Positions 5,073 to 51,078 of a stretch of 64,000 nt of DNA are shown here, piece after piece. The notes below the pieces were generated by a model. The model had not been told where the DNA came from and searched no databases. It worked only from the letters and a program-made list of their open reading frames with translations. Source of the stretch: Beroe forskalii (Eukaryota > Ctenophora > Nuda > Beroida > Beroidae). Every line of letters begins with the position of its first letter. Positions within the stretch are counted from its first letter, which is position 1. The stretch lies in assembly GCA_011033025.1 (NCBI GenBank), contig WFMF01000229.1, positions 1 to 64,000 of the forward strand, given 5' to 3'. Made by a program: the position numbers and the translations under genes.

Positions 5073-5530
5073 TTAGATCAAATTGGTTCCTCAATAGGAT
5101 TTCACTTCAATTCTTGCCTATTTTCGACGAGACTGGTCGGAGAAAAAATCACGGCAGCAACTTAATACAGTGCTAGGCAGGGGTCTGGGGCGGCAGCCCC
5201 AGAAGCCAGACGTTTAGATCAGATAAAATTGGCGCCTCAATAGGATTTCACTTCAATTCTTGCCTATTTTCGACGAGACTGATCGAGGAAAATTCACAGC
5301 ATCAACTTAATACAGTGCTAGGCAGGGGTCTGGGGCAGCAGGCGGCAGCCCCCAGAAGCCAGACATTTAGGTCAGATTAAATTGGTGCCTCAATAGGGTC
5401 TCACTTCAAAACTTGCTCTTGCTTATTATCGACGAGACTGGTCGAAAAAAATCACGGCAGCAACTTGAGACGTGCAGTGCTAGTGAATTAAATTGAAGCT
5501 CCTAAATTTCTACCTACTCATTTTTTCCTA
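5073..5530 (+). repeat. Tandem array of about 155-bp units, right block
   Basis: About three further units of the array at 1640-2688, in the same orientation, resuming exactly where the nested LINE ends. The last unit degrades near 5530. From 5530 to 5690 there is AT-rich sequence, then the CCGAGG-rich subterminal region of the host element. Confidence 0.72.
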
Positions 5531-10300: not shown

Positions 10301-13300
10301 AGTGCATCAAAATGTATGTATGTACTCCTCAGTTGAACAATAGGTTTTGCGCCATAATCATTATCTTCATTCCGATCTAAAATAAGTAACGAACACTGAC
10401 AGATAGAAATGACGGCGCACAGAAATAATGTAGTTGAATTTGATAAAACGGAGCAATACATCCTATATATATGGCGCCACAGGCACAAGTCTGGGTTATA
10501 TCTCTAAGACTAGATAAATAAACATTGAAACACGGATGGAGTTATCAAGCCCGTCTGGGTGGCGCCATTTAGGTGTATACGATAGTGTTCCTTTTATCTA
10601 TTTTATCTTTATCTTGTGTTAATATCGTTTAGACTTTAGATATATCGTATCTTATACATTGTGCTCATATTTACTTTATCTTGTGCTACCGAATGTGCCA
10701 TTAAGAATATAACATATATCGTACCGAACATTTTGTGCTCCTTATCGCTATTTCATCTTGTTTTACAGTATATATACGGTTAAGAATAGATTATATCGAA
10801 TCGTTTTTAATATGAAAAGTGCGATAACAGATGTCATGGGAGCTTATTATTCTCCTATTTACATCCGCACAGAGATAGAAAATAGGTTAGAATCGTGCGA
10901 ATGGCCGTTTCAGAAAATTGGTAGTAATTCAACAGTTGTAATTCAACAGCTGGGAATACTAATTCAACACTTGAATAGTAATTCAACACTTGAATAGTAA
11001 TTCAACACTTGAGGTATAGTAATTACACACTTGACAGTAATTCAACTGCTGGGTACGGTGATATTACATGATTGATATTGCTCAAAAATTCGAAAAGTAA
11101 TTACACTGCAGGGTAATAATACCGATAATTTACATGCCACTGCGTGGTGCCTTACTGGCATGATACAGTAGATACAATTCTAGCGTAATATCTCCTCCTC
11201 AGTCTGTGCTGCCTGCTCTCCCAGACCCACCACCTGATATGATAGCACCAGGGGACATGGAGAAAATCATGAAACTTCCTGAAAAACCAGCAGACAAAAC
11301 CAAAACACAGGGTAAGGTCTAAGTTATCAGTCGTGCGATACATACATACATTTTGATACATTTTGATACATTTTGAAGGGTTTAGCAGGGATCGCAGTTG
11401 GGATCAGTGATGTCCACGTACTCCATTTCCTCGTTCACAGCTCCAGTCGAGTAAGGAGTTGCTATTGTTTGGAGGTGTGTAACCCGGAACCGGTGGCTTA
11501 TCCGGGTATTGGGCGAGGAATTCTCCCAGGGCTATCTTGAATGCCTCTAGCTCCTTCACCGTGTTGACTTGCTTCGGGAGCAAGTTCCAGAGCCGAGCAG
11601 ATTTTACCCCAAATGAATTGTCATATGCAGTTGACACCGAGCGCTGTGCCTTGTAATTGAATGGTAGAATTTTGCTCGGACTCCAAGACGTTCATTGCAG
11701 TAGAATTCAAATTTGTGCTGTTCGGGGCCTTTTCTTTGCAGAATCTTCCATGTGTGGATAATGGTGTATCCTTATCTTCTGTGTTGTGGAAACATCAGCC
11801 TTAGCTTCTTCAGACGATCCCAGTAATCCATATCCTTAGTCCCAGCAATGCGTTTGGTAAAGTATCGCTGGATTGATTCCACTGCTTGAATGTCCTTTAT
11901 CAGACGAGGGTCCCAGACAGGGCAACAGTACTCCAGTCTACTCCTCACTAAGGATTTGAAGAGGGTCAGCATTGTCAGTTCCGATCTATCCCGGAAAGTC
12001 CCTAGGACCCACGATGCCATTTTTCGGGAGTCTGTGACAACATTGTTCACCTGCAGAGTCCAGCTGCAATCGTCTGTTATGTGGACACCAAGATCTCTCA
12101 CGGATGACGTTGGTTGGATGATGTTACCATCAGGTGTTGTGTACTGTCTCAGCTCTGCGGTGAAGGGCAGGTTTCGCAAGAGGTAGGAGTTATTGAGGAA
12201 GAAGTTCATGACCTCGAACTTATCCTGGTGGAGCACCATATTGTTGTTCAGAGACCAACTGACAACTTGATCCAGATCATTCTGTAGCAAAACCTTGCAT
12301 AACATGCTAATAATCTGGTGCAGGAGCTTGGTGTCGTCAGCAAAAGCGAGTGGTTTTGATGAGGCCATCTTGATGATCATGTCCACCACGTAGAGAATGA
12401 AGAATATCGGTCCCAACACGGTGCCCTGAGGGACGCCACTTTCCACGTTAGCAAACTCTGATTTATTCCCATCAACCACCACGGCTTGACGCCTGTTTGA
12501 GAGGAAGTCTTCTATCCAGTTTAAGAGCTTGCCTTTGATGCCGTAATGCTCCAATTTGGCTAGAAGTATGCGATGGTCTACCTTGTCAAAAGCTTTGCTG
12601 TAATCCAGATAGATGACATCAACCTCGTTACCCTCATTTAGGCTCTTAAGTATGTAGTCCACATGTTCAAGAAGCTGAGTCAAGCAGCTTCTTGTTTTTC
12701 TGAAACCGTGTTGGCTGTCCGGGAGAATGCCACTAGTTTCAAGGTGATCTACTAGTGCGTTGCGGATGACCCTCTCGAATACCTTTATGAGATGGGATGT
12801 AATGGAAACAGGGCGGTAATTTGCAGGGTCAGTCTTATTGCCTTTCTTGAAGATCGGCGTGATGTACTGCAACTTCAGCTCTGCTGGAATCTTGCCCTGA
12901 GCTAATGAGCTATTCCATAGTAGCCAGAGTGGAACAGATAGGGTGTCTTTGCAGCTACACAGGATCTTAGCTGGGATGTCGTCATCCGGTGCTGCAGAGT
13001 AAGGGTCTAGCTCTCCTATAGCTGCAAGTATGTCCTCAACTGAGAACTCAATGTCACACAGCAATTATGAATGTTGAATGCAATTATGTTGACTACTTTT
13101 ACACTCTATCTGCTGAATTATTTAATCTAGTACATTATAATCACCTCAGTTAGATGTGTTTTAAGCCTGCAAGTCCAGCAATCCCCCTTTTCCCGTAGCC
13201 CCAGAAGTTAACATGTCGGAGACTGCCGAGGAATGGCGGAACGGTCCGGGAAAGCTGTGGTATGACCTCGCTAAAGTACCAAACACTGCTACGTCGTTTG

Positions 13301-22300: not shown

Positions 22301-25300
22301 ACTCAAGGTACAATAATCTAGACATTGATCTCTCCTCTATAATATTGTGTCAGAAGCCAGTTCTATAGTTATCGGCGAAGCAAAATTCGTTGCAATTATT
22401 CAGCCATTATGAAACTTATTTCTTAGTTAGTTGTCTGTATTTCCACGGGATACGCTTTGTTATCTGAGCGACTGGAGAGTTATCAGCCCTCACTCAGGAC
22501 GCAGGATACGGTAAGTCGATAAAGAACGTGTCTGATGACGAGGATGAGGATGACTCAGAGAAGATTCTGGATGATGAAGTCAGGATTGCTCCGTGGACCC
22601 TCACCAGGACCTTTGCTAACGCTCTCAGAGGTAGGAACTGCGTTTATCAATGATGCTTCTCTTGTAGCTTTATTGACTATCTTTTCATCCACGTAAAATT
22701 AGCAGATGGTTTTGCTAATGTACATAAAAATAAGAAAATACTGGATTGATCCCGTACATTCAGTGATATAATTATAATTTTGATAATTTCTGATTTTCTT
22801 GAATGTCCGCAGGGAAGTGTCAGCTGGAAATCAATGGTATCGCTGACCCCACTGGTATCGGAGAAGGATACTCCTTCCTAAGAGTTGCCAACAAGCCTTC
22901 CCTGAAGGGTAACAAGGAGAAGGAAGCAGCCAAGGAGAAGGACGCCAAAGCCCCTGAACCCAAGTCCACGAGGACCGTCATGGGTACAGACTCAGACCTG
23001 AGGCGACTCACTCTGAAGAATGCGCGGGAGGTGCTGAGAGGGTTCGGAGTTCCGGAGGAGACTATTAACAGCTTGACCCGGTGGGATGTTATTAATCTGG
23101 TGAGGAAGCTGAGTACTGACGCAGCCAGGACGGGGGAGGCTGCGGGAATGGGGAAGTTCGCAAGGGGAGCCAAGTATTCGCTCATAGAACACCAGGAGAA
23201 GTACAAGGAGGAGTGTCAGAGGATATTCGACCTGCAGACCAAGTAATTAACATAAGAGTTATATATCAGTGTCCGAGTTATCAGTGTAACTAAGCGATGC
23301 TAGAATAGAATACAACCAAGCAATGTTAGCATAGAATACCTTGCCGACCTTGCCATCAGTTCACGTTGACATCAGACTACCCTGACATCAGACTACCCTG
23401 ACATTGGTCCACCTTGACATCGGTTCAACTTGACATCGGTTCACCTCGACATCGGTTCACCTTGACATCTGTTCACCTTGACATCAGTTCACCTTGACAC
23501 CACTTTACCTTGACATCGGTTCTCCTTGACATCGGTTCACCTCGACATCGGTTCACCTCGACATCAGTTCACCTTGACACCACTTTACCTTGACATCGGT
23601 TCACCTTGACATCAGTTCACCTTGACATCGGTTCTCCTTGACATCGGTTCACCTTGACATCGGTTCACCTTGACATCAGACTACCCCGACATCGGTTCAC
23701 CTCGACATCGGTTCACCTCGACATCAGTTCACCTTGACACCACTTTACCTTGACATCGGTTCACCTTGACATCGGTTCACCTTGACATCAGTTCACCTTG
23801 ACATCGGTTCACCTTGACATCGGTTTACCTTGACATCAGTTCACCTTGACATCAGTTCACCTTGACATCGGTTCACCACTTTACCTTGACATTGTTTCAC
23901 CTTGACATCAGTTCACCTTGACATCGGTTCACCTTGACATCGGTTCACCTTGACATCGGTTCACCTTGACATCGGTTCACCTTGACATCGGTTCACCTTG
24001 ACATCGGTTCACCTTGACATCAGTTCACCTTGACATCGGTTCACCTTGACATCGGTTCACCTTGACATCAGTTCACCTTGACACCAGTTTACCTTGACAT
24101 CGGTTCACCTTGACATCAGTTCACCTTGACATCGGTTCACCTTGACATCGGTTCACCTTGACATCGGTTCACCTTCATCGGTTCTTGACATCAGTTCACC
24201 TTGACATCGGTTCACCTTGACATCAGTTCACCTTGACATCGGTTCACCTTGACACCAGTTTACCTTGACATCAGTTCACCTTGACACCAGTTTACCTTGA
24301 CATCGGTTCACCTTGACATCAGTTCACCTTGACATCGGTTCACCTTGACATCGGTTCACCTTGACATCAGTTCACCTTGACATCGGTTCACCTTGACATC
24401 GGTTCACCTTGACATCGGTTCACCTTGACATCAGTTCAACTTGACACCAGTTCACCTTGACATCAGTTCACCTTGACATCAGTTCACCTTGACATCGGTT
24501 CACCTTGACATCGGTTCACCTTGACATCATTTCACCTTGACATCGGTTCACCTTGACATCGGTTCACCTTGACATCGGTTCACCTTGACATCAGTTAACC
24601 TTGACACCAGTTTACCTTGACATCAGTTCACCTTGACATCGGTTCACCTTGACATCGGTTCACCTTGACATCGGATTACCTTGACATCAGTTCACCTTGA
24701 CATCAGTTCACCTTGACATCGTTTCACCTTGACATCGGTTCACCTTGACATCAGTTCACCTTGACACCACTTTACCTTGACATCGGTTCACCTTGACATC
24801 AGTTCACCTTGACATCGGTTCTCCTTGACATCGGTTCACCTTGACATCGGTTCACCTCGACATCGGTTCACCTTGACATCGGTTCACCTTGACATCGGTT
24901 CTCCTTGACATCAGTTCACCTTGACACCACTTTACCTTGACATCGGTTCACCTTGACATCAGTTCACCTTGACATCGGTTCTCCTTGACATCGGTTCACC
25001 TTGACATCGGTTCACCTTGACATCGGTTCTCCTTGACATCGGTTCACCTTGACACCACTTTACCTTGAAATCGGTTCACCTTGACATCGGTTCTCCTTGA
25101 CATCGGTTCACCTTGACATCGGTTCACCTCGACATCGGTTCACCTTGACATCGGTTCACCTCGACATCGGTTCTCCTTGACATCAGTTCACCTTGACACC
25201 ACTTTACCTTGACATCGGTTCACCTTGACATCAGTTCACCTTGACATCGGTTCTCCTTGACATCGGTTCACCTTGACATCGGTTCACCTTGACATCAGTT

Positions 25301-28300
25301 TACCTTGACATCAGTTCACCTTGACATCGGTTCACCTTGACATCGGTTTACCTTGACATCGGTTCACCTTGACATCGGTTTACCTTGACATCAGTTCACC
25401 TTGACACCAGTTTACCTTGATATAAGAAAGTCTTGACATCAGACATCACTTTATCTTAGCATCAGTTTATTTCAATGACATCGGTGTACGTGGCATCAGT
25501 TTACCTTGACATCCCCCTCTCCAAATTTCTAACAGCATGAAGCTCTGCACAGCAAGCCTCATTACCTCCCATATAAGAAATAATAGGGGGGGGGGGCAAC
25601 CCCCATAAACCCCCGGTGGATATCGAAAAATGGCAAATGGGGGTTTAATTTTTGGGGGTTTATGGGGGTTTTTGGGGGTTTATGGGGGCTTAATCTAGTT
25701 AAATTTTGCTGTTTTATGACTGATTTTGTTCACGATTTTTGGCATTTTACGGAATGGTACCATTTTTTGTTGACGATTTTTGGCCTTTTTTGAAATGGTA
25801 CCATTTTTTGTTGATGAATTTCGGCCCTTTTCTGAAATGGTACCATTTTCGGCCATTTTTTGAAATGGTACCATTTTTTGTTGACAATCTTAGACCCTTT
25901 TTTGAAATGGTACCATTTTCTGTTGGCGATTTTCAAGCCTTTTCTGAAATGGTACCATTTTTTGTCGACGATTTTTGGCCCTATTTTGAAATGGTACCAA
26001 TTTTCATTGAAGATGTTCGACCTTTTTCTGGAAAATTAAACCCCCATAAACCCCCAAGTGGATATCGAAAAAGGCAAATGGGGGTTAAATTTTTGGGGGT
26101 TTATGGGGGTTTATGGGGGTTTATGGGGGTTGCCCCCCCAATAATAGGCCGTGCTTTTGATGTAATTATCTCGTGACCTCCCTCATGTAATGTGATTGTT
26201 GTGTTATAAAGCAGCCACGTGCCCTGTCACATGGGCTCTTACTTACTGCTGCTAATTCAGCTGCTGACAGTGATACTGCTCTCGTATTTCAAGCACAGGG
26301 AAATATAATCACCGCATGAATATATGTACAGAGCACTCTTCATCCTCAGTTTTAAACTTTACAACACTACTTTATACAATCAAATTTGAGGTAAGATTCC
26401 GTTCCATGTGTATCTGAGTCTCTTCGGAGCTCAGACTCACATCTTTTGGTTTGTCTTCCACAAGGAGGACTATGATAAACAAGAATAGAAAAATACCGCA
26501 CACCATATTGCAGATGGTGGCATCTGTATGATCTGGTCTGCAGCTATGTCATATTTTACATTAGAAGTTCCGAGTACGTTCCCGAAATTGAAAAATAGGT
26601 GCGTTTCATGAGCAATACGGATGCAGTCTTGTATATTTAAGTTGCTGACAATCTCTTTCCTATAATAACCTAAAAACCTTTAAAACCCTCTACAGGATGC
26701 TGGGGTCTGTGGAAGTGATGAGTACGGATGAGGAAGAGAGTTCTGACGAGGAAACCAACATAGACGAGCTGGGTAAGGATCTGGAGAGCATGCTGAACAA
26801 GAAGAAGACCATGGAGCAGTTGTCTCTAGAGAGGGAGGAAGCAGAAAGGAAGGACTTACAGAAGCTCCTGAGTGAGGGTCCCACAGGGACTCCCCCGCCC
26901 CCTGCTGCAAGTTCAGCGGAGGAAGTCAAAGCTGCAGACTCCGAAACAGGCGGTGATCAAAACGGCAGGAGGCTGATAATCAGGCGGAAATTCAGCACGG
27001 AAACAGGGTACTACTACCGAGAAGAAGTGATCTCCCGAGCGGAGGTTATTGATGCGTATCTGAAGATCATAGAAACAGCGGACAAGACGAACAAGAGATT
27101 CCTGATTGATAACCTGGACGAGGAACAGAAGGATGAAGTGAGGAAGGAGAGGAGGAGGATCCAGGAACAGCTGAGGAGACTCAACAGAGCTCAAGGTTAT
27201 TGCTTGATACTTAGTGAAGGAAAATTTTGCCTCCATTCTAATTCTATACATCAAGTTGAACGACAATATAAAATGAATGATATAATGAATTTGAAATTTC
27301 AATAACATCTGTTATTCATGAAACGGAACCGCTTTTTTAAAATTCATTCCCCTAATTCCTACCATTTTCTCCTCTCTTCAGAGCGTGAGAAGATAAACGA
27401 GAAGAAGCACAAGAAGGTAGCGAAGGAGAAAGCCCCGATCAACATGAAGTGCGGTGCGTGTGGGGAGACAGGACACATGAAGACCAACAAGCACTGCAAG
27501 ATGTACGGCAGAACGGGACCCGTCACTGACGACCAGATCATTGATGACGAGCTGTCGAATGTCTTCAACGAGCAGACTTCCAGTCTGGTAAAGGTGGAGG
27601 ATACCAAGATCCGGATAGGTCGAGCCTTCCTGGCCAAGGTGGACGAGGTGAGCCAGAAGGCTGCACAGAAACAGGCAGCTCAGAAGAGACAACTGGAGGA
27701 GACTGGTGGTGGGGAGGAGAGGAGTTTAGATGGGAACGAGTTGTCGGATCACGGTAAAATGAGGAAGAAGAAGAAACTGGATAAAGCAGAGAGGAAAGCA
27801 ATGAAAGCAGCTAAAGCAATGAAGGTGATTTTACAGATAATGGTTTGAATTTTCAAGTAATTCCTATCGTTTCAACGTTTCAAAGTTTAGAACTCTTCAG
27901 TCACTGCCTTTATCAGTAATAAAACTAAGTATACAATACGTTACTCATTATTTTTTAAATTTTTGAATCCCCAACACTTCAGTCGGAGCATTTGGACTAC
28001 TTGGAGCCCAAAGTTAAAGGCAGCTCGAGAGCCCGAGTTCACCCCGAGGTAGAACTTAGGACATTCTTTGAGGAGCTCCTAGTAAGGATGAAGGAAATAC
28101 CAAAAGTAAGTTCCTGCTCATGAAGAACCAAATAATCACATTCGATCTGATTCCAGTAATAGAAACGTACATTTAAGACTGATTAGAATATGACTATGCT
28201 TCATGCAGATTGTAATGACCAATCATCTCTCCAGACAGGTGCATTCCACAAGCCGGTCTCTGCTCGTGAGATACCTGACTACTACACCTTCGTGAGCATC

Positions 28301-30233
28301 CCCATGGACCTACAGACCATGAAGAACCACTGCACCAACAACTTCTACCAGTCTAGGTTGGTGCTGTGGTAGGGTGCTCTTTAGAGGAAGAGCTGTGGAA
28401 ATAGTATTGGTCAATGCAATTGCAATATGCCGTTTGGTATCCAATTGGCATTGTTTGTGACTAAAATGAAACAGTGAAAGCCGAAAAGAGGTACCTTACT
28501 GCAGAAAATTAAAAGCTCCGAATATGACACAATATAAGGCAAAAATTTCAACAATTTTCATGGACCTCTTCTTTGGTTTTATGGTTCACCAAATTAAGCA
28601 TTTTTGCAGCCTGACTCCTGAGTGCTTACAGAATTCAGGAGGTAGTCGATAGTCTGATGTTATTTCTTCTCTATCGTGAGCCCTACATATGACGTCACTC
28701 CACCCCTCAGAGAGGATTTCCTAGAGCACGTGGAGCAGATTGTCACCAACAGCCGCATCTACAACGGCAAGCTCTCTGAGTACACCAAGGCAGCTGAGAC
28801 CATGTTGGAGATAGCTAAGACGGAGTTCGCTAAGAGAGAAGACATGCTCCGGACCTTGGAGGAGAAGATAAACCCGGCTGCTAACAAGAGCACTCAGAAC
28901 CAGTTCAACCTGGTGCTGCTGAGAAGTGTGGATGCCATGATGAGGGTATCCAACTCTCAAGCCTTCCACATCCCTGTCAACGCCAAGGTGGCTCCCGACT
29001 ACTATCAGGTTAGGATAAAAAGTTTTTACAAACTCAAGTTTGGCTTTTTTGGCATGTTTTTTCTCCTTTTTATTCCATGCCTGTTGAGAAAGCATTGGAA
29101 GAGATATCAGATGCGCGAAATACTGCGTTTGTAAGTATATGCCAAAACTTACAGTACAACAGTTATCCCGAATTTCACGATTATTTCAACATTAATACTC
29201 CCCGCGTTACAGGTGATAAACACCCCGATGGACATGTCGACGCTCCGTAAAAACGTCGAGAAGAACAAGTACAAGAGCAGAGAAGAGTTTGTCAAGGATG
29301 TGAGCCTTATTGTGGGGAACAGTCAGCAGTATAACGGTGAGAATATACTCCTTTTGAAGAGGCAATGCCATACGAAATCCGTGAAATCAGAAACATCTCC
29401 AGACTAAACATTCTAATGTCCCCCTATGTCAATAACCTGACCCCCTCCCTATTCTCTCACGCGATCTTACCATGCAGGGGCAGAGTCCCTGTACACTAAG
29501 AAGGCGGAGGAGCTACTGGAGAAGGCTAAAGAAGTGCTCCTATCCGCTAACGAGACCCTGGTTCATTACGAGACCCTGCTGCAGTCCGGGGACCAGAAGC
29601 CCAGCACTCAGGGCGGTGTCCTCAGCAGTCAGGGGAGTGTCATCAGCAGCCAGGGAAATGTCTTCAGCAGTCAAGGGGGTCTACTTAGCAGTCAAGGGAG
29701 TCTGCTCAGTACTCAGGGAAATCTGCTCAGCAGTCAAGGCAGTCTGCTCAGCAGTCAAGGCAGTCTGCTCAGCACTCAGGGGAGTGGTGTGAGCAGCAGT
29801 CTGCTCGGCAGTCAGGGGCAGCAGTGTGGCTGTGAACAGTCCTAAGGTAGCCACGGGCAAGGAGAGTCCTGACTCCTACTTTAGTGCTCGTGAGGATGAA
29901 AGTGATGCTCCCTCAGACACTGATCAGTGAGTTTCTAAGTCTTAAATGAAAGTTAACATGACAATTTATAATATGTAGCAGCCACTTTCATGTTGATAAA
30001 TGATGATATGTTGCCATAAAAATTATCGTTTGTGATTCGTTTACATATACTAATTTTATGATAATCACCATCGCCACCATGACAAACCTTGGCAACGGAG
30101 TAACACAAGTCTATTGCCCAGGTTCCGTGAGGTATCAAAGAAGAGGTATGACAGTGCTGGGATTGAAGAGGAAAACCAAGTGGGACACACACTATTTGAA
30201 GATCTTATGGATAGTGAGGATGATTCTGACTGA
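6897..30233 (+). CDS. TAF1: TAF1, TFIID subunit 1, complete gene in 25 coding exons
   Basis: TAF1 is the scaffold of TFIID in the nucleus. It binds TBP, TAF7 and acetylated histones and helps place RNA polymerase II at promoters. Coding exons: 6897-6965, 7200-7373, 9310-9558, 11203-11311, 13199-13326, 15406-15562, 18591-18697, 18897-18976, 19343-19517, 19809-19990, 20171-20322, 20577-20706, 20893-21093, 21270-21411, 22177-22307, 22498-22630, 22813-23242, 26696-27195, 27382-27824, 27983-28105, 28235-28356, 28711-29008, 29213-29336, 29478-29926, 30122-30233. All junctions are GT-AG, and phases agree except at exon 7/8 and inside exon 24. The start at 6897 is the first ATG in frame, just before the conserved FLFGNID block; an AG at 6861-6862 upstream may be a 5'-UTR or trans-splice acceptor. 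The product is about 1,640 residues, somewhat shorter than vertebrate TAF1. Confidence 0.93.
7987..8914 (-). pseudogene. Decayed Crypton-type tyrosine recombinase (DUF3504-like), antisense in TAF1 intron 2
   Basis: Read on the - strand, 8914-8456 resembles the N-terminal core-binding part of Crypton/KIAA1958-type recombinases ([49 protein letters not shown]). After a frame break, 8416-8159 has the middle of the catalytic domain ([30 protein letters not shown]). A further broken segment at about 8082-7987 gives [19 protein letters not shown] and IMAYTCHK, equivalent to the HSVRK...GHK catalytic boxes, with the expected glycine replaced by cysteine. Several stops and frameshifts make it inactive. 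Whether it is a true Crypton or came from a domesticated DUF3504 gene cannot be decided here. The flanks at 7374-7986 and 8915-8980 show nothing further. Confidence 0.75.
8983..9110 (+). repeat. AATAGGTTAGAATCGT repeat with TTCAACAGTTGA units, copy 1
   Basis: AATAGGTTAGAATCGTACGAATG, a CAGAAAATTTG-type bridge, then several AATTCAACAGT(TGAGAATRGT) units with short dyad symmetry. A second copy begins at 10884, on the other side of exon 3, in the same orientation. Confidence 0.55.
9310..9558 (+). CDS. TAF1: TAF1 exon 3
   Basis: 83 codons, phase 0 at both ends. It contains [17 protein letters not shown], the conserved 'LFPEF...LRF.RLF' block of TAF1, followed by a basic KKKKKYKH run and ENGLWTK. 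The acceptor TTTTATGTAAG is weak in pyrimidines, so the exact first base is less certain than for other exons. Confidence 0.85.
9665..9823. other. Cluster of five hairpins, three with one loop and different stems
   Basis: Three hairpins at 9696-9721, 9726-9759 and 9762-9791 share the loop GAGCTTGCGA, but their stems differ: AATTCCAC/GTGGAATT, CAATAAATGCAC/GTGCATTTATTG and GTAATTGCAC/GTGCAATTAC. Outer sequences 9665-9691 and 9794-9823 are roughly inverse to each other and each contains ACACAC-N4-GTGTGT. The cluster lies 110 bp after TAF1 exon 3. From 9824 to 10880 I see no gene. Confidence 0.8.
10884..11150 (+). repeat. AATAGGTTAGAATCGT repeat, copy 2, with TTCAACACTTGAA units
   Basis: It starts with the same sequence as 8983, followed by repeated TAATTCAACACTTGAATAG units, each with the small dyad TTCAA-CAC-TTGAA, and then AATTACAC variants and GCCACTGCGTGGTGC. 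The style (short stem, variable stem sequence, AATTAC edges) resembles the hairpin cluster at 9665-9823. Confidence 0.5.
11203..18976 (+). CDS. TAF1: TAF1 exons 4-8, linker with two WED/WEN repeats
   Basis: Exon 4 (11203-11311) is proline-rich. Exon 5 (13199-13326) has [14 protein letters not shown] and FDYGFKL, a TAF1 hallmark. Exons 6 (15406-15562) and 7 (18591-18697) carry the paired motifs [11 protein letters not shown] and GWENSVIWD, the two 'WEDxIIWD' repeats of the family. Exon 8 (18897-18976) encodes [16 protein letters not shown]. Exon 7 ends in phase 0, but exon 8 reads correctly only if one extra base precedes it. Either a micro-exon is missed or the assembly has an indel. The introns are large and full of repeats. 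Confidence 0.82.
11335..13064 (-). mobile_element. 5'-truncated CR1/L2-like LINE, antisense in TAF1 intron 4
   Basis: The - strand reading frame 13064-11772 (430 codons) is a reverse transcriptase with [45 protein letters not shown] and the catalytic FADD box. The C-terminal tail ([32 protein letters not shown]) continues in another frame at 11637-11404, so at least one frameshift separates them. No endonuclease domain is present, the usual 5' truncation. The 3' end has about three ATTTTGATAC decamers at 11345-11378, typical of a short tandem LINE tail. Confidence 0.85.
13757..14880 (+). repeat. 16-bp minisatellite CACTCTGACACCAGTG in TAF1 intron 5
   Basis: Consecutive 16-bp units, consensus CACTCTGACACCARTS, with a higher-order period near 140 bp in the first third (blocks at about 13850, 13985 and 14110 that include the variants GCAATCTTAGACCAGT and CACTCGGAAACCAGT). 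Units fade after 14650. ORFs crossing it ([17 protein letters not shown] repeats) are artefacts. From 14880 to 15400 there is no further structure apart from intron sequence. Confidence 0.9.
15563..16705 (+). other. TAF1 intron 6, left part, no gene
   Basis: No coding similarity is visible. 15713-15745 is a GCGCGCGATCC/GGATCGCGCGC-like imperfect palindrome. 15770-15890 has GTGATTGG/GAAAGTG short repeats. The 133-codon ORF at 16308-16709 has no recognisable domain or splice context. Confidence 0.4.
16706..16925 (+). repeat. Dispersed repeat, copy B, with CCGTCCCT tract
   Basis: It matches 238-445: T/C-run, GGCGTTTTTGT, ACAAAAAGGCA, GGTTGGCAGAGATCGTG, and GTGCTCCTTTATAATA at 16856-16871. It ends in a pyrimidine microsatellite (CCGTCCCT units, then a C-run) at 16885-16922. 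Confidence 0.5.
17262..17345 (+). tRNA. tRNA-like sequence, probably a pseudogene or SINE head
   Basis: TAGCTCAATCGGTTAGCG at 17269-17286 matches a polymerase III A box/D-arm. GGTCACGGGCTCAAGCCCC at 17317-17335 resembles a B box/T-arm, though GGGCTCAAGCC departs from the GGTTCGANTCC consensus. A T-run follows at 17355-17359. The acceptor stem pairs poorly and the anticodon region is too long (about 19 bases in the loop, so an intron or decay), so no anticodon can be named. It is best read as a decayed tRNA or the head of a SINE. Confidence 0.45.
17595..17663 (+). other. Conserved 68-bp hairpin-forming element, copy 2
   Basis: GGAAATTAAGCGCCTGCATA at the left, and CAAGAATTG...CAATTCTTG as a perfect 9-bp stem enclosing GCAGGCGC at the right. 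It is nearly identical to 6193-6260 at both ends with a variable middle. From 17664 to 17980 nothing else is seen. Confidence 0.62.
17981..18172. repeat. 192-bp foldback (near-perfect inverted repeat) in TAF1 intron 6
   Basis: Two arms of about 95 bp separated by two bases, centred at 18076-18077 (GGGTCGG-TG-CCGACCC). The inner 40 bp of each arm are identical apart from single changes. The outer part pairs less well but ends AGAGTTTAG/CTAAACTCT. No clear TSD is visible. It could be a foldback MITE; a transcript would form a long hairpin. Confidence 0.85.
19343..23242 (+). CDS. TAF1: TAF1 exons 9-17, DUF3591 (TAF7-binding / reported HAT) core
   Basis: Exon 10 opens with [11 protein letters not shown]. 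Exon 11 has [19 protein letters not shown], exon 12 [11 protein letters not shown], exon 13 [18 protein letters not shown], exon 14 [15 protein letters not shown], exon 15 [17 protein letters not shown], exon 16 [18 protein letters not shown], and exon 17 [14 protein letters not shown] through [12 protein letters not shown]. The order and spacing match the DUF3591 core of animal TAF1, which forms the TAF1-TAF7 interface and was reported to have histone acetyltransferase activity. All phases are consistent. Two decayed copies of exon 15 lie just upstream of the intact one. Confidence 0.92.
21632..21721 (+). pseudogene. Decayed duplicate of TAF1 exon 15, copy 1
   Basis: Starts after TTCTCCCAG, as the true exon does, and follows its sequence for about 90 bases. 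It lacks one base within the GAGGAGGAGATCAGG block, shifting the frame, and it breaks off into the CTCCTCAGTAA minisatellite before the second half of the exon. Confidence 0.85.
21722..22163 (+). repeat. 11-bp minisatellite CTCCTCAGTAA between exon 15 copies
   Basis: Tandem ACTCCTCAGTA units at 21722-21798 and 21903-22162, broken by exon copy 2. Each unit contains CTCCTCAG, a pyrimidine tract plus AG, much like the TTCTCCCAG acceptor of the neighbouring exon. Confidence 0.9.
21817..21902 (+). pseudogene. Decayed duplicate of TAF1 exon 15, copy 2
   Basis: Again preceded by CATTCTCCCAG. Relative to the intact exon at 22177 it has extra bases in the GATTGCGGGTGGTGGG block, giving a frameshift, and it ends after TTGCCGGAAGA in the minisatellite. 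The intact exon (22177-22307) is the third copy. Confidence 0.85.
23340..25515 (+). repeat. 16-bp minisatellite CACCTTGACATCGGTT in TAF1 intron 17
   Basis: Well over 100 units of CACCTTGACATCRGTT, where R is often A, with occasional CTCCTTGACATCGGTT and CACTTTACCTTGACAC variants that recur as higher-order blocks. It begins about 100 bp after exon 17. Its last units (TCAGTTTATTTCAATGACAT) match the edge of the macrosatellite at 42465 and lead into the module at 25520. Confidence 0.95.
25520..26600 (+). repeat. 560-bp macrosatellite module, copy 1 (with a nested element)
   Basis: Begins CAAATTTCTAACAGCATGAAG and continues, after the nested element 25588-26139, through GGCCGTGCTTTTGATGT, TTATAAAGCAGCCACGTG, TTACTGCTGCTAATTCAGC, CTACTTTATACAATCAAATT and TCTTCGGAGCTCAGACTC to about 26600. 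The same module recurs four times at 37.1-44.3 kb. Here no 16-bp array follows it; the intron ends at exon 18. Confidence 0.88.
25588..26139. mobile_element. GGTACC palindrome-array element, copy 1, with 9-bp TSD
   Basis: 552 bp, starting G9-CAACCCCC and ending GGGGGTTG-C7. AATAATAGG flanks both sides (25579-25587 and 26140-26148); the uninterrupted sister modules have AATAATGTG once at this point. The core has seven GGTACC palindromes (AAATGGTACCATTT or close), spaced mostly near 41 bp, separated by semi-conserved TTGTTGACGATTTTTGGCCC. Both ends contain GTGGATATCGAAAAA. No transposase. The 145-codon ORF across it is a by-product of the repeat. Confidence 0.85.
26696..27824 (+). CDS. TAF1: TAF1 exons 18-19, coiled region and CCHC zinc knuckle
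   Basis: Exon 18 joins exon 17 in phase 2 to restore [16 protein letters not shown], then a long charged helix and an [11 protein letters not shown] segment with basic and arginine-rich stretches. Exon 19 has [16 protein letters not shown], the C-x2-C-x4-H-x6-C zinc knuckle that in TAF1 binds promoter DNA, followed by a lysine-rich stretch. Exon 18 continues open past the donor at 27195/27196 into the intron, so an ORF alone would overextend it. Confidence 0.9.
27983..29336 (+). CDS. TAF1: TAF1 exons 20-23, tandem bromodomains
   Basis: Bromodomain 1 spans exons 20-22 ([20 protein letters not shown], then MDLQTMK and NSRIYNG). Bromodomain 2 spans exons 22-24 ([20 protein letters not shown], then MDMSTLRKN and NSQQYNG). 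The acetyl-lysine-contacting asparagines lie in NSRIYN and NSQQYN, and the PDYY and PMD landmarks are present in both. Phases 0, 2, 0 and 1 join cleanly. The two domains are adjacent, as in all TAF1 proteins. Confidence 0.93.
29478..30233 (+). CDS. TAF1: TAF1 exons 24-25, SSQG repeats and acidic C-terminus
   Basis: Exon 24 finishes bromodomain 2 and then encodes about ten tandem SSQGSLL-type heptads (29600-29815). The frame that encodes these runs into a stop at 29846. The next frame (from about 29795 on) continues through [20 protein letters not shown] to the donor at 29926/29927 and joins exon 25 perfectly. Exon 25 ends [17 protein letters not shown], the conserved TAF1 terminus, with TGA at 30231-30233. 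The exon therefore carries one base too many or two too few inside or just after the repeat. Confidence 0.85.
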
Positions 30234-36404: not shown

Positions 36405-37094
36405 GTAAGGTCAGTTCACCTTGATATCAGCCTACCTTGACATCTGCTCATCTTGATATCGGTTCACCTTGACATCGGTTTATGTTGACATCGGTTTACG
36501 TTGACATCGGTTTACCTTAACATCGGTTTACCTTGACATCGGTTCATCTTGACATCGGTTTATATTGACATCGGTTTACCTTGACATCGGTTTACCTTGA
36601 CATCGGTTCATCTTGACATCGGTTCATCTTGACATCAGTTCATCCTGACATCGGTTTACCTTGACATCGGTTTACCTTGACATCGGTTCATCTTGACATC
36701 AGTTCAGCTTGACATCGGTTCATCTTGACATCGGTTCATCTTGACATCGGTTCACCTTGACATCGGTTCACATTGGAATCGGTTCACCTTGACATCAGAC
36801 TACCTTGACATCAGTTTACCTTTACATCAGACTACCTTGACATCGGTTTATCTTGACATCAGTTTATCTTGACATCAGTTTACTTGACATCAGTGTACCT
36901 TGACATAATTTTACCTTGACATCAGACTACCTTGACATCAGTTTACCTTGACATCGGTTCACCTTGACATTGGTTCACCTTGACATCGGTTCACCTTGAC
37001 ATCAGTTTACCTTGACATCAGTTTACCTTGTCATCAGTTCACCTTGACATCGGTTCACCGAGGCATCAGTTGACCTTGACACCAGTGTACCTTA

Positions 37095-37650
37095 CAACCA
37101 AGGGCCTACTCCTCTTTCAGGAGTGTTGTGTATTGTGTAAAGCTCTCCACATTTCTGAAAGCACGAAGCTCTGTACAGCAAGCCTCATTACATCCCAAAT
37201 AAGGAATAATGTGTCAAAGCTTTTGATGTGATTATCTGTGACCCTCATGTGTGAGTGTTGAGTTATAAAGCAGTCACGTGTCCTTTCACATGGGCTATTA
37301 TATACTGCTGCTAATTCAGCTGCTGACAATGATACTGCTCGTATTTCAAGCATTGGGGATATATCATCACATCATGAATATACGCACTGAGCACCCTTCA
37401 TCCACAGTTTTAAACTTTACAACACTACTTTATACAATCAAATTTGAGGTAAGATTCCGTTCCATGTGTATCTGAGTCTCTTCGGAGCTCAGACTCACAT
37501 CTTTTGGTTTGTCTTCCACTAGGAGGACTATGATAAACAAGGATAGAAAATACCACATACCATTTTGCAGATTGTGGCAGCTTTATGAACTGGTCTGCAG
37601 TTATCTCATACTTAAGAAGTTCCCGAGTACGCTCCCGACAACGTTCACTG
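37095..37650 (+). repeat. Macrosatellite module, copy 2 (uninterrupted)
   Basis: From AGGGCCTACTCCTCTTTCAG through AGCACGAAGCTCTGTACAGC, AATAAGGAATAATGTG, TTATAAAGCAGTCACGTG, CTCCGAAGAGACTCAG (as its complement) to AAGAAGTTCCCGAGTACG and GACGTCAGTTCACC. It serves as the empty reference site for all three nested insertions in its sisters. Confidence 0.9.
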
Positions 37651-38577
37651 ACGTCAGTTCACCTTGACATCAGACTACCTTGACATCTGCTCATCTTGAC
37701 ATCGGTTCACCTTGACATCGGTTTATGTTGACATCGGTTTACGTTGACATCGGTTTATGTTGACATCGGTTTACGTTGACATCGGTTTACGTTGACATCG
37801 GTTTACCTTGACATCGGTTCACCTTGGACATCGGTTCACCTTTGACATCGGTTCATCATGACATCAGTTTACCTTGACATCGGTTCACCTTTGACATCGG
37901 TTCACCTTGACATCGGTTCACCTTTGACATCGGTTCACCTTTACATCGGTTCACCTTGACATCGGTTTAACCTTGACATAGGTTCATCTTGGCATCGGTT
38001 TATTTTTGACATCGGTTCACCTTTGACATCGGTTCACCGTGGCATTGGTTTACCTTGACATCAGTTTACCTTGACATCGGTTCACCTTGACATCGGTTCA
38101 CCTTGACATCGGTTCACCTTGACATCGGTTCACCTTGAGATCGGTTCACCTTGACATCGGTTCACCTTGACATCGGTTCACCTTGACATCGGTTCAACTT
38201 GACATCGATTCACCTTGACATAGGTTCACCACGACATCGGTTCATCTTGACATCGGTTCACGTTGACATCGGTTCACCTTGACATCGGTTCAACTTGACA
38301 TCGGTTCACCTTGACATCGGTTCACCTTGACATCAGTGTACCTTGACATCGGTTTACCTTGACATCATATTGTCTTGACATCGGTTCACCGTGGCATCGG
38401 TTTACCTTGACAACAGATTGTCTTGACATCAGACATCAGTTTATTCTAGCATCATTTTATCTTGACATCAGTTTATTTCAATGACATCGGTTCACCGTGC
38501 AATCAGTTTACCTTGACACCAAGGAAATTCTCCTCTTTCAGGAGTGTTGTGTATTGTGTAAAGCTCTCCACATTTCT

Positions 38578-40009: not shown

Positions 40010-40476
40010 TTCTAACAGCACGAAGCTATGTACAGCAAGCCTCATTACATCCCAAATAAGGAATAATGTGCCGTGCTTTTGATGTGATTATCTCGTGACC
40101 TCCCTTATGTAATGTGAGTGTTGAGTTATAAAGCAGTCACGTGTCCTTTCACATGGGCTATTACATACTGCTGCTAATTCAGCTGCTGACAATGATACTG
40201 CTCTCGTATTTCGAGCACAGGGAAATATCATCACAGCATGAATATACGCACTGAGCACCCTTCATCCACAGTTTTAAACTTTACAACACTACTTTATACA
40301 ATCAAATTTGAGGTAAGATTCCGTTCCATGTGTATCTGAGTCTCTTCGGAGCTCAGACTCACATCTTTTGGTTTGTCTTCCACTAGGAGGACTATGATAA
40401 ACAAGGATAGAAAATACCACATACCATTTTGCAGATTGTGGCAGCTTTATGAACTGGTCTGCAGTTATCTCATACT

Positions 40477-41070: not shown

Positions 41071-42514
41071 TAAGTTCCCGAGTACGCTCCCGACAACGTT
41101 CACTGACGTCAGTTCACCTTGACATCAGACTACCTTGACATCTGCTCATCTTGACATCGGTTCACCTTGACATCGGTTTATGTTGACATCGGTTTACGTT
41201 GACATCGGTTTATGTTGACATCGGTTTACGTTGACATCGGTTTACGTTGACATCGGTTTACCTTGACATCGGTTCACCTTGACATCGGTTCACCTTGACA
41301 TCGGTTCATCATGACATCAGTTTACCTTGACATCGGTTCACCTTGACATCGGTTCACCTTGACATCGGTTCAACTTGACATCGGTTCACCTTGACATCGG
41401 TTTACCTTGACATCGGTTCATCATGACATCGGTTCACCTTGACATCGGTTCACCTTGACATCGGTTCACCTTTACATCGGTTCATCTTGACATCGGTTAA
41501 CCTTGACATCGGTTCACCTTGACATCGGTTCACCTTGACATCGGTTCACCTTGACATCGGTTCACCTTGACATCGGTTCACCTTGACATCGGTTCACCTT
41601 GACATAGGTTCACCACGACATCGGTTTACCTTGACATCGGTTCACCTTGACATCGGTTCACCTTGACATCGGTTTACCTTGACATAGGTTCATCTTGGCA
41701 TCGGTTTACCTTGACATCATATTGTCTTGACATCGGTTCACCTTGACATCGGTTCACCTTGACATCGGTTCACCTTGACATCGGTTCATCTTGACATCGG
41801 TTCACCTTGACATCGGTTCACCTTGACATCGGTTCACCTTGACATCGGTTCACCTTGACATAGGTTTACCTTGACATCGGTTCACCTTGACATCGGTTCA
41901 CCTTGAGATCGGTTCACCTTGACATAGGTTCACCTTGAGATCGGTTCACCTTGACATCGGTTCAAATTGACATCGGTTCACCTTGACATTGGTTTACCTT
42001 GACATCGGTTCACCTTGACATCGGTTCACCTTGACATCGGTTCACCTTGACATCGGTTCACCTTGACATCGGTTTACCTTGACATCGGTTCACCTTGACA
42101 TCGGTTCACCTTGACATCGGTTTACCTTGACATAGGTTCATCTTGGCATCGGTTTACCTTGACATCATATTGTCTTGACATCGGTTCACCGTGGCATTGG
42201 TTTACCTTGACATCAGTTTACCTTGACATCGGTTCACCTTGACATCGGTTCACCTTGACATCGGTTCACCTTGAGATCGGTTCACCTTGACATCGGTTCA
42301 CCTTGACATCGATTCATCTTGACATCGGTTCACCTTGACATCGGTTCAACTTGACATCGGTTCAACTTGACATCGGTTCACCTTGGCATCGGTTTACCTT
42401 GACAACAGATTGTCTTGACATCAGACATCAGTTTATTCTAGCATCATTTTATCTTGACATCAGTTTATTTCAATGACATCGGTTCACCGTGCAATCAGTT
42501 TACCTTGACACCAA

Positions 42515-43080
42515 GGAAATTCTCCTCTTTCAGGAGTGTTGTGTATTGTGTAAAGCTCTCCACATTTCTAACAGCACGAAGCTCTGTACAGCAGGCCTCA
42601 TTACATCCCAAATAAGGAATAATGTGCCGTGCTTTTGATGTGATTATCTCGTGACCTCCCTCATGTAATGTGAGTGTTGAGTTATAAAGCAGTCACGTGT
42701 CCTTTCACATGGGCTATTACATACTGCTGCTAATTCTGCTGCTGACAATGATACTGCTCTCGTATTTCAAGCACAGGGAAATATCATCACAGCTTGAATA
42801 TACGCACTGAGCAATCTTCATCCTCAGTTTTAAACTTTACAACACTACTTTATACAATCAAATTTGAGGTAAGATTGCGTTCCATGTGTATCTGAGTCTC
42901 TTCGGAGCTCAGACCCACATCTTTTGGTTTGTCTTCCACTAGGAGGACTATGATAAACAAGGATAGAAAAATGCCACACAACATTCTGCAGATTGTGGCA
43001 TCTGTATGCCCTCGTCTGCAGTTATCTCATACATAAGAAGTTCCCGAAATCAGTTAGTACGCTCCCGACATTGTTCAGTG
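42515..43080 (+). repeat. Macrosatellite module, copy 4
   Basis: Uninterrupted copy with the AGGAAATTCTCCTCTTTCAG start shared with copy 3. Its end (AAGTTCCCGAAATCAGTTAG) has a small insertion that is shared with copy 5. Confidence 0.88.
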
Positions 43081-43689
43081 ACGTCAGTTCACCTTGATAT
43101 CAGCCTACCTTGACATCTGCTCATCTTGACATCGGTTCACCTTGACATCGGTTTATGTTGACATCGGTTTACGTTGACATCGGTTTACCTTAACATCGGT
43201 TTACCTTGACATCGGTTCATCTTGACATTGGTTTACCTTGACATCGGTTTACCTTGACATCGGTTTACCTTGACATCGGTTCATCTTGACATCGGTTCAT
43301 CTTGACATCAGTTCATCCTGACATCGGTTTACCTTGACATCGGTTCATCTTGACATCAGTTCAGCTTGACATCGGTTCATCTTGACATCGGTTCATCTTG
43401 ACATCGGTTCACCTTGACATCGGTTCACATTGGCATTGGTTCACCTTGACATCAGACTACCTTGACATCAGTTTACCTTTACATCAGACTACCTTGACAT
43501 CGGTTTATCTTGACATCAGTTTATCTTGACATCAGTTTACTTGACATCAGTGTACCTTGACATAATTTTACCTTGAAATCAGACTACCTTGACATCAGTT
43601 TACCTTGACATCAGTTTACCTTGTCATCAGTTCACCTTGACATCGGTTCACCGAGGCATCAGTTGACCTTGACACCAGTGTACCTTACA

Positions 43690-44265
43690 ACCAAGGGCCT
43701 ACTCCTCTTTCAGGAGTGTTGTGTATTGTGTAAAGCTCTCCACATTTCTGAAAGCACGAAGCTCTGTACAGCAAGCCTCATTACATCCCAAATAAGGAAT
43801 AATGTGCCGTGCTTTTGATGTGATTATCTCGTGACCTCCCTCATGTAATGTGAGTGTTGAGTTATAAAGCAGTCACGTGTCCTTTCACATGGGCTATTAC
43901 ATACTGCTGCTAATTCAGCTGCTGACAATGATACTGCTCTCGTATTTCAAGCACAGGGAAATATCATCACAGCATGAATATACGCACTGAGCACCCTTCA
44001 TCCACAGTTTTAAACTTTACAACACTACTTTATACAATCAAATTTGAGGTAAGATTGCGTTCCATGTGTATCTGAGTCTCTTCGGAGCTCAGTCTCACAT
44101 CTTTTGGTTTGTCTTCCATTAGGAGGACTATGATAAACAAGGATAGAAAAATACCGCACACCATTTTGCAGATTGTGGCATCGGTATGACCTCGTCTGCA
44201 GTTATCTCATACATAAGAAGTTCCCGAAATCAGGTAGTATGCTCCCGACATCGTTCACTGACGTC
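43690..44265 (+). repeat. Macrosatellite module, copy 5
   Basis: Uninterrupted copy with the GGGCCTACTCCTCTTTCAGG start shared with copy 2. The 16-bp array preceding it (43080-43690) is nearly the same, variant by variant, as that preceding copy 2 (36405-37095), which marks a segmental duplication. Confidence 0.88.
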
Positions 44266-47200
44266 AGTTCACCTTGACATCAGACTACCTTGACATCTGC
44301 TCATCTTGACATCGGTTCACCTTGACATCGGTTTATGTTGACATCGGTTTACGTTGACATCGGTTTATGTTGACATCGGATTACGTTGACATCGGTTTAC
44401 GTTGACATCGGTTTACCTTGACATCGGTTCACCTTGACATCGGTTTACCTTGACATCGGTTTACCTTGACATCGGTTTACCTTGACATCGGTTCAACTTG
44501 AGATCGGTTCACCTTGACATCGGTTCACCTTGACATCAGTTTACCTTGACATCGGTTCACCTTGACATCGGTTCACCTTGACATCGGTTCACCTTGACAT
44601 CGGTTTACCTTGACATAGGTTCATCTTGGCATCGGTTTACCTTGACATCGGTTCACCTTGACATCGGTTCACCGTGGCATTGGTTTACCTTGACATCAGT
44701 TTACCTTGACATCGGTTCACCTTGACATCGGTTCACCTTGACATCGGTTCACCTTGACATCAGTTTACCTTGACATAGGTTCACCACGACATCGGTTTAC
44801 CTTGACATCGGTTCACCTTGACATCGGTTCATCTTGACATCGGTTCACGTTGACATCGGTTCACCTTGACATCGGTTCAACTTGACATCGGTTCACCTTG
44901 GCATCGGTTCACCTTGACATCAGTTCACCTTGACATCGGTTAACCGTGACGTCGGTTTATCTTGACATTGGTTTACCTTGACATCGGTTAACCGTGACAT
45001 GAGTTTTCCTTGACATCGGTTCACCTTGACATCGGTTAACCTTGACATCGGTTCACCTTGACATCGGTTCACCTTGACATCGGTTCACCTTGAGATCGGT
45101 TCACCTTGACATCGGTTCGCCTTAACACCAGTTCGCCTTGCCATTAGTTTACCTTGACATCGGTTCACCTTGACATCGGTTCATCTTGACATCGGTTCAT
45201 CTTGACATCGGTTCACCACGACATCGGTTTACCTTGACATCGGTTCACCTTGACATCGGTTCATCTTGACATCGGTTCACGTTGACATCGGTTCACCTTG
45301 ACATCGGTTCACCTTGACATCGGTTCACCTTGACATCGGTTTACCTTGACATAGGTTCATCTTGGCATCGGTTTACCTTGGCATCAGTTTACCTTGACAT
45401 CGGTTCACCTTGACATCGGTTCACCTTGACATAGGTTTACCTTGACATCGGTTTACCTTGACATCGGTTTACCTTGAGATCGGTTCACCTTGACATCGGT
45501 TCACCTTGACATCGGTTTACCTTGACATCGGTTCACCTTGAGATCGGTTCACCTTGAGATCGGTTTACCTTGACATCGGTTTACCTTGACATCGGTTCAA
45601 CTTGACATCGGTTCACCTTGACATCGGTTTACCTTGACATCGGTTCACCTTGACATCGGTTCATCTTGACATCGGTTCACCTTGACATCGGTTCACCTTG
45701 ACATCGGTTCACCTTGAGATCGGTTTACCTTGACATCGGTTTACCTTGACATCGGTTCAACTTGACATCGGTTCACCTTGACATCGGTTTACCTTGACAT
45801 CGGTTCACCTTGACATCGGTTTACCTTGACATAGGTTTACCTTGACATCGGTTCACCTTGACATCGGTTCACCTTGACATCGGTTTACCTTGACATCGGT
45901 TCACCTTGAGATCGGTTCACCTTGAGATCGGTTTACCTTGACATCGGTTCACCTTGAGATCGGTTTACCTTGACATCGGTTTACCTTGACATCGGTTCAA
46001 CTTGACATCGGTTCACCTTGACATCGGTTCACCTTGACATCGGTTCACCTTGACATCGGTTCACCTTGACATCGGTTCACCTTGACATCAGTTTACCTTG
46101 ACATCAGTTTACCTTGACATCGGTTCACCTTGACATCGGTTCACCTTGACATCGGTTCACCTTGACATCGGGTTACCTTGACATCGGTTCACCTTGACAT
46201 CGGTTCACCTTGACATCGGTTCACCTTGACATAGGTTCACCACGACATCGGTTTACCTTGACATCGGTTCACCTTGACATCGGTTCATCTTGACATCGGT
46301 TCACGTTGACATCGGTTCACCTTGACATCGGTTCAACTTGACATCGGTTCACCTTGGCATCGGTTCACCTTGAGATCGGTTTACCTTGACATCGGTTTAC
46401 CTTGACATCGGTTCAACTTGACATCGGTTCACCTTGACATCGGTTTACCTTGACATCGGTTCACCTTGACATCGGTTTACCTTGACATCGGTTTACCTTG
46501 ACATCGGTTCACCTTGACATCGGTTCACCTTGACATCGGTTCACCTTGACATCGGTTTACCTTGACATCGGTTCACCTTGAGATCGGTTCACCTTGAGAT
46601 CGGTTTACCTTGACATCGGTTCACCTTGAGATCGGTTTACCTTGACATCGGTTTACCTTGACATCGGTTCAACTTGACATCGGTTCACCTTGACATCGGT
46701 TCACCTTGACATAGGTTCACCACGACATTGGTTCACCTTGACATCGGTTCACCGTGGCATTGGTTTACCTTGACATCAGTTTACCTTGACATCGGTTCAC
46801 CTTGACATCAGTTCACCTTGACATCGGTTCACCTTGACATCAGTTTACCTTGACATCGGTTCACCTTGACATCGGTTCACCTTGACATCGGTTCACCTTG
46901 ACATAGGTTCACCACGACATCGGTTTACCTTGACATCGGTTCACCTTGACATCGGTTCATCTTGACATCGGTTCACGTTGACATCGGTTCACCTTGACAT
47001 CGGTTCAACTTGACATCGGTTCACCTTGGCATCGGTTCACCTTGACATCGGTTCACCTTGACATCGGTTAACCGTGACGTCGGTTTATCTTGACATTGGT
47101 TTACCTTGACATCGGTTAACCGTGACATGAGTTTTCCTTGACATCGGTTCACCTTGACATCGGTTAACCTTGACATCGGTTCACCTTGACATCGGTTTAC

Positions 47201-47315
47201 CTTGACATCGGTTTACCTTGACATGGGTTTTCCTTGACATATGTTTACCTTGACATGGGTTTTCCTTGACATCGGTTTACCTTGACACCAGTTTACCTTG
47301 ATAGCAGATTGTCTT

Positions 47316-49795: not shown

Positions 49796-49865
49796 TTTTC
49801 TCTCTTGATGCATTATAGTATTTTGAAGTAGAAAATGAAATATTATTCTACTTATAGTCTTATTG

Positions 49866-50793: not shown

Positions 50794-51078
50794 CTTATTG
50801 TATGTTGCTGTGTATACGCCTCTTGTTGTAATATACACACCTAGATTAGTTCGTAACTTAAATTTTCTTAAAGATTTGTGTATTGAATGATAATTTCTAT
50901 ATTTGCATAATTTAGTGTGTTATTATTACCTTGATTCACTAGCTTAGATTACCTTACATTAAAATTAGATTCATCATTTTTCTGATTTTTAATATTAAGT
51001 CAAGTATATTTCCCCTTGCTCCCTTTAGTAAATTCATATATTATTAGGTAAATAATATCCACTATTTTTAGATCAGTT

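Follow-up and report, generated by a model that had tools for sequence, protein, structure and literature searches.

The window analysed here, a stretch of 64,000 nucleotides of the ctenophore Beroe forskalii (contig WFMF01000229.1, positions 1 to 64,000), contains three loci in which GGTACC palindromes recur about every 41 bp between a run of G and a run of C. The question that they raise is whether these loci are copies of one mobile element and, if so, what a regular array of dyads would do in it.

Copies, ends and target-site duplications

The three loci are true copies of a dispersed family, in line with the shared plan originally predicted for them, and their bounds were refined to 25586-26139, 49865-50794 and 63224 to contig position 64417 (the coordinates of copies and their parts refer to the + strand). 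Copy 1 (25586-26139) is complete, with 554 bp, and belongs to the B-type; it reads G11...C7 and holds seven GGTACC, five of them in exact 14-mers. Its left tip (25586-25604) consists of the G-run followed by CAACCCCC, its left direct subterminal module (25615-25659) begins with GGTGGATATCGAAAAATGGCAAATGGGGG, its palindrome array (25752-26002) has a period of 41-42 bp with one interval of 28, and its right subterminal module (26058-26130) lies in the same orientation as the left one. The flanking target-site duplication AATAATA occupies 25579-25585 on the left (7 bp, or as many as 9 when two of the run's G's are included) and recurs as AATAATA(GG) at 26140-26148 on the right. Copy 2 (49865-50794) is a complete A-type element of 930 bp, with a B-end on the left, an A-end on the right and 12 GGTACC; its array (50107-50661) lies inside a 311-bp higher-order tandem repeat of 1.9 copies, and its target-site duplication can be read as anything from TTATT to CTTATTG. 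Copy 3 is of C-type. The window holds its first 777 bp (63224-64000), preceded by AATTGA at 63218-63223, and the complete copy on the contig (63224-64417) measures 1,194 bp, with 18 GGTACC and this 6-bp duplication.

About 0.5 kb downstream of copy 1 lie exons (26649-29134) in which a bromodomain was detected and which we take to resemble a TAF1-type gene; one such TAF1-like exon matched nine proteins in a protein search, the best at 88% identity. Elsewhere in the window, larger repeated modules contain extended arrays built from the 16-bp unit TGACATCGGTTCACCT (23347-25420, 36414-37093, 37649-38412 and 41104-47301). A repeat whose cores resemble GGCGGCAGCCCCCAGAAGCCAGACGTT is dispersed; it stands in tandem at 1668-2393 and 5069-5466 and recurs at loci L038 and L118. 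The window also has a short internal GGTTAG-like array of telomere type (54153-54231) and a reverse transcriptase frame of 430 aa (11772-13064; RVT_1, E 2e-31).

A scan of the 216-Mb genome (1,134 contigs) gave 5,760 exact matches to the 14-mer AAATGGTACCATTT, where its reversed control gave 4; 3,022 of them have their next exact neighbour at a period of 38-44 bp, an arrangement found 0 times for the control. The genome scan proposed as a check therefore gave counts far beyond chance. The tip GGGGGGSCAACCCCC was found 561 times (280 + 281; control 0 and 2), and longer end patterns assigned 193 of these tips to the B-type end, 161 to the A-end and 148 to the B-end of the A-type, while 59 fitted none of the three patterns. 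A sample of 48 full copies was assembled, comprising 45 complete copies of 458-3,000 bp and three long interrupted ones. Within the 600-bp class of the B-type, 15 copies show a median pairwise difference of 2.9% and lie 0.2-5.7% from their consensus, a low divergence from which the class is seen to be a recent spread. A viral or prokaryotic source was rejected, as the paired-palindrome pattern had no match in the viral contigs and none in the collection of genome contigs.

All 45 complete copies start with a run of G (6-14) and finish with a run of C (5-15), inward of which stands CCAACCCCC or a close variant. The inverted G-run/C-run ends that had been claimed were borne out in the window as well, with CCAACCCCC on the inner side (CCAACCTCG in copy 3), and the terminal inverted repeats consist, at both ends, of the G-run plus CCAACCCCC in the A-type or CCAACCCCCATAAACCCCC in the B-type. 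The subterminal module (consensus GGTGGATATCNAAAAATNGCCAATAGGGGGTTTAATTTTGGGGGG) runs parallel at both ends in the three-copy alignment, and in 45/45 full copies the GTGGATAT core of the module, exact or with one base changed, points in a single direction. An inverted subterminal pair GTGGATATC/GATATCCAC is therefore rejected: since the module is parallel, inversion is confined to the short tip, the GTGGATATC module forms a direct repeat, and the ends of the family are asymmetric. A G-quadruplex motif was discarded as a general feature of the ends (17/45 left ends, 0/45 right ends). Folding was computed for single strands of four ends, in two cases for each of the strands, and gave weak z values, from -0.5 to -2.8.

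Target-site duplications were counted in the 48 flanked full copies (46 computed, two by eye), leaving aside L005, L008 and L009, whose tips were not found, L013 and L052, whose partner end was not found, and the 40 probe loci, which were retrieved without their outer flank. Since the first base of the element is G and its last is C, a duplication that itself has G at its end or C at its start appears extended, so every fitting length was listed for each copy. Exact duplications were present in 43/48 copies (41/46 computed plus 2/2 by eye, namely TGTCACT, 7-8 bp, in L084 and TGTATA, 6 bp, in L085), compared with a mean of 1.4/46 and a largest value of 6 when the flanks were re-dealt. A length of 6 bp fits 34 of the 48 copies (12 of them solely), eight need at least 7, one has 5 and five have none; for the 46 computed copies the corresponding figures are 33 (11 solely), seven, one and five. 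Inspection by eye reveals, in four of these five copies (L017, L039, L047 and L050), a duplication of 6-7 bp that is shifted or altered by 1-3 bases and was left uncounted. Hence, of the prediction that copies across the genome would have consistent ends and 9-bp duplications, the ends stood but the length did not, the mode being 6 bp once lengths had been gathered from many copies as proposed. The 9 bp AATAATAGG read in copy 1 represent the largest of several possible lengths in an ambiguous case: as the two G's are continuous with the G-run of the element, 7, 8 or 9 all fit. Copy 2 allows 5-7 bp and copy 3 allows 6 alone.

Copy 1 does lie inside one of several repeated modules, and the sister modules, at about 92% identity, provide empty sites: the insert is missing at 42612-42631 (+ strand; ATAAGGAATAATGTGCCGTG) and, in further sister modules, at 40056-40075 and 43792-43811. 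Furthermore, L006 and L010 lie within local tandem repeats whose adjacent units resemble the uninterrupted site, with duplications of at most 7 bp. Among 25 copies with a 6-bp core, the targets tend to a symmetric, AT-rich W-A-T-A-T-W (inner positions 12-14/25 each), in a tally that by construction excludes C at the first position and G at the last. Altogether, consistent ends and target-site duplications support a mobile miniature family.

The palindrome array

The core had been described as perfect 14-bp palindromes about 41 bp apart; the spacing of GGTACC was confirmed, but not all sites are perfect 14-mers, as the three copies in the window have 18 exact 14-mers versus 32 GGTACC cores. The period is 41 bp in the A-type and 42 bp in the B-type, with minorities at 24-25 and 28 bp, and the orientation of the array relative to the ends is constant (30/30 A-type and 14/14 B-type copies, the single C-type copy standing outside this count). 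Higher-order repeats measure 311 bp in copy 2 and 123 bp in copy 3. With ends located independently of the palindromes, all 45 complete copies were found to hold 5-40 GGTACC, and the three long interrupted copies hold 7, 10 and 22, counting nested DNA. We also probed 40 ends without a listed partner over 650 bp from the end, allowing up to three mismatches per near-palindrome, and 37 of them showed at least four. The three exceptions are L093, a diverged end with three near-palindromes; L111, with one and other sequence beyond it; and L095, which has none and was rejected as a family end, being probably a chance G/C run.

The palindrome cores change about one third as often as the spacers. In the 15-copy alignment, 13/1,838 core sites are off consensus versus 78/3,403 spacer sites (p=1e-5), and the difference persists when CpG and homopolymers are removed (11/1,594 versus 47/2,353, p=6e-4) and when the two most diverged copies are removed as well (7/1,379 versus 30/2,048, p=0.007). 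Within the consensus of the 600-bp class, units differ from one another at 1/112 core and 35/207 spacer positions. When units were anchored on their spacers, with no selection for the palindrome, GGTACC was conserved at 94-96% in the A-type versus 77-78% for the spacers, and 40 B-type units gave 0.918 for the core versus 0.800 for the spacer; a sample of nine B-type units showed no core excess (0.873 versus 0.872). The A and B consensus sequences have identical cores and differ at 6/27 spacer positions, a comparison in which the units picked by GGTACC fix six of the core positions. A McDonald-Kreitman-like contrast of between-unit and private changes in cores and spacers was not significant (p=0.11; 0.06 without CpG), and since the ratio of the two does not differ significantly, a mutational cold spot in the cores is possible. 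The proposal that the regular dyads are candidate sites for a dimeric protein gains indirect support from the array being present in 48/48 full copies and from cores being more conserved than spacers, and this suggests that the array may be required in cis and bound by such a protein.

The few isolated palindromes inspected (L005, L008 and L083) are array fragments or lie within retroelement DNA. The whole of L008 (2,001 bp) and L083:4140-6162 have in common a 2-kb stretch of 97% identity, with one AAATGGTACCATTT and a zf-RVT-like frame slightly below the cut-off of Pfam. Because this stretch carries a AAATGGTACCATTT, some isolated palindromes may have spread with a retroelement.

Coding capacity and the search for a transposase

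A palindrome-free frame of at least 100 aa occurs in 2/45 full copies (118 and 121 aa), both times within inserted DNA. No transposase frame of the family's own was detected in the copies read (the 48 full ones, the 40 ends that were probed, and part of C254 and C303), and the full-length relative with the same ends and a transposase that the original prediction had envisaged was not found among these full copies and probed ends. For C254 (275003-281843, 6.8 kb) and C303 (936939-942175, 5.2 kb), one 701-bp piece of each was read, without a frame above 56 aa. Four loci were considered as coding partners: L083 (C257, 6.5 kb), with RVT_1 frames, and L084 (C206, 3.9 kb), with RVT_1 and RNase_H frames, were both read as carrying a nested retroelement and set aside; no such retroelement frame was noticed in reading L085 (C357, 3.0 kb); and L041 was rejected as it contains a nested foreign MITE. 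The diverged end L093 and its 1.5-kb extension L126 have no long frame (none above 96 aa in L126).

L033, L038 and L047 are interrupted copies. At about 721-1526 of L047, a different insert, bounded by GGTCGTATGAAAGTATACC and apparently flanked by the 8-bp duplication ACCATTTT, is nested in the palindrome array, and at about 600-2480 of L041 there is a nested non-coding element with ends GGATGAAGCCCAAAAAAAACC.

Transposase domains do occur in the genome. Searches returned 46 MULE, 35 IS1595/Merlin and 23 hAT hits, and none was seen inside a copy when the hits were compared by eye with the ends among the matches listed (the first 100 places for the tip and for each of the three longer end patterns); the P and KDZ searches gave no hits, and their controls were equally silent. 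Scanning 30 of the 46 MULE loci for ends revealed a true family end at L079 alone, about 1 kb from the MULE and belonging to an element that runs away from it, while L053 and L054 have a 10-base tip-like match with no module and no palindrome array. The resemblance to Mutator/Merlin-type elements had been premised on a 9-bp duplication; because that duplication fails, the mode being 6 bp, and with no MULE or IS1595 domain seen inside a listed copy, the likeness is unsupported.

Explanations for the array and comparison with known systems

We are inclined, with somewhat more confidence than doubt, to regard the copies as non-autonomous transposons in which an array of candidate dimer-binding palindromes would be needed in cis, the transposase being encoded elsewhere. 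Such a transposase would move the copies of the family and insert them at AT-rich sites with a stagger of 6 bp, at times 7 and in rare cases 5 or 8. The 14-bp palindromes would be the binding sites of a dimeric DNA-binding domain, either of the transposase or of an accessory protein, and many of them in a row would be needed in cis for its recruitment, whereas the end module with the G-run/CCAAC tip would be the part that is recognised and cut. Unit number would vary because tandem units are gained and lost through slippage or through unequal exchange. It counts against this reading that, in the known transposons compared and as far as the sources describe them, subterminal repeats flank a coding region, whereas here the repeats fill the element; a low mutation rate could also account for the conserved cores. 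It is tempting to go further and speculate, although we think it rather unlikely, that the family represents an undescribed superfamily of DNA transposons, characterised by asymmetric ends, 6-7 bp duplications, G-run tips and an obligatory array of dyads about four helical turns apart, which would nucleate a transposase filament or multimer on a miniature element serving as recruitment platform.

The same transposon might instead carry the array as a passenger satellite, whose 41-42 bp unit multiplied through slippage and unequal exchange and whose cores were kept alike by mutation bias or homogenisation rather than by the needs of a protein. The higher-order repeats of 311 and 123 bp and the short units of 24-28 bp do reveal active tandem expansion, private changes are also depleted in the cores, as a mutational cold spot could cause, and satellite arrays are known in non-autonomous elements, as far as PMC7492417 describes them. 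We nevertheless consider this unlikely, since 0/48 full copies are without the array and since spacers are off the unit consensus at 17% of positions versus 1% for cores, which would not be expected from homogenisation of whole units. Recognition of the palindromes by a host factor (a transcription factor, silencer or replication protein) that aids spread or tolerance, unrelated to the transposase, would also suit conserved palindromes in every copy, as would any dimeric protein; no sign of host sites was seen, the isolated palindromes inspected being array fragments or retroelement DNA, and we regard this explanation as very improbable.

It is quite improbable, too, that a Mutator-like transposase moves the element and that the family is a Mutator derivative with short duplications. 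The genome has the 46 MULE hits mentioned above, mosquito Muta1 is described as having subterminal tandem repeats as well as a palindromic motif at its termini (PMC5225508), and the mode of 6 bp lies inside the 4-10 bp that the part of PMC10045372 consulted gives for IS256/MuDR duplications. On the other hand, that mode lies outside the 8-9 bp duplicated by 14/14 Aedes MULE families in the account of PMC5225508, no MULE was seen inside a listed element, the element at L079 extends away from its MULE, and the ends are asymmetric here, without long inverted repeats. LTRs are equalised at each round of transposition, whereas the two direct modules, which do resemble LTRs in being repeated at both ends, differ from each other identically across the 600-bp class. 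This argues against an LTR-derived TRIM, and the narrow range of duplication lengths and lack of a poly-A tail argue against a SINE. A rolling-circle element of Helentron/HINE type would share the central tandem repeats, but Helitron-type insertion makes no duplication according to PMC7492417 as far as consulted, and exact ones, mostly of 6-7 bp, are found here; we give this group of readings almost no credence.

If the array is indeed needed in cis, as we favour, the family would amount to a natural test of the number of protein-binding sites that a transposon requires, with 5 to 40 candidate sites per copy. MITE copies usually retain little beyond their ends, and here an internal array is seemingly kept in every copy. 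Several natural empty sites and the young 600-bp class make the family suited to testing, and the duplication length behind the earlier superfamily guess is now corrected.

No description of the motif or of the plan was found among the listed results of the literature searches (Repbase lay outside them); the string aatggtaccatt occurs in one paper (PMC6361847). The systems named below are compared through their published descriptions, as far as the cited texts give them. Muta1 and other Aedes MULEs are alike in their subterminal tandem repeats, terminal palindromic motif and non-autonomous derivatives with variable repeat number, but have 8-9 bp duplications, 145-bp inverted repeats and 12-bp subterminal repeats with 3-4 bp linkers (PMC5225508), in contrast to the 6-bp mode, direct module and 14-bp palindromes every 41-42 bp throughout the element of the present family. 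Galileo/Foldback elements of Drosophila are also internally repetitive, and the THAP domain of Galileo binds extra sites within its tandem repeats (PMC3688188), a likeness that is putative as regards binding here. Their repeats, however, are placed in long inverted arms and their transposase is of P-type (PMC3688188), whereas in this family the spacers are unidirectional across the whole element; no long inverted repeats of tandem units occur, the array being one-directional in 30/30 A-type and 14/14 B-type copies and the module direct. The Cg_HINE Helentrons of oyster are likewise non-autonomous, their two end modules enclosing a tandem array in the centre, but are described without target-site duplication, with longer satellite-like monomers (screened at 100-500 bp) and with no palindromic core seen in that account (PMC7492417), while 43/48 copies here have exact duplications. 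CMITE elements of corals have an unusually conserved internal region with a proposed role in transposition; they differ in being about 100 bp long, duplicating TTAA and being linked to piggyBac, and words in "palindrom-" are absent from the main text that describes them (PMC2872659).

As to duplication length, 9/46 copies are compatible with the 8 bp of Merlin, against 33/46 that fit 6. Polintons, whose ends are AG..TC, fit in length, and no long inverted repeats and no rve integrase or polymerase genes were noticed in the copies read. A 6-bp duplication is described for Polinton, IS3EU and Dada (6 or 7 in Dada families), but IS3EU has TA..TA ends where this family has G-run..C-run, and Dada lacks terminal inverted repeats and targets small-RNA genes in the accounts consulted (PMC10045372, PMC3706591); here targets are varied and AT-rich, and inverted tips are present. 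What the copies read do have in common with MITEs are fixed ends with target-site duplications, terminal inverted repeats and no coding capacity. Set against these systems by their descriptions, the family is a new non-autonomous DNA transposon family of a kind already known, with an unusual architecture.
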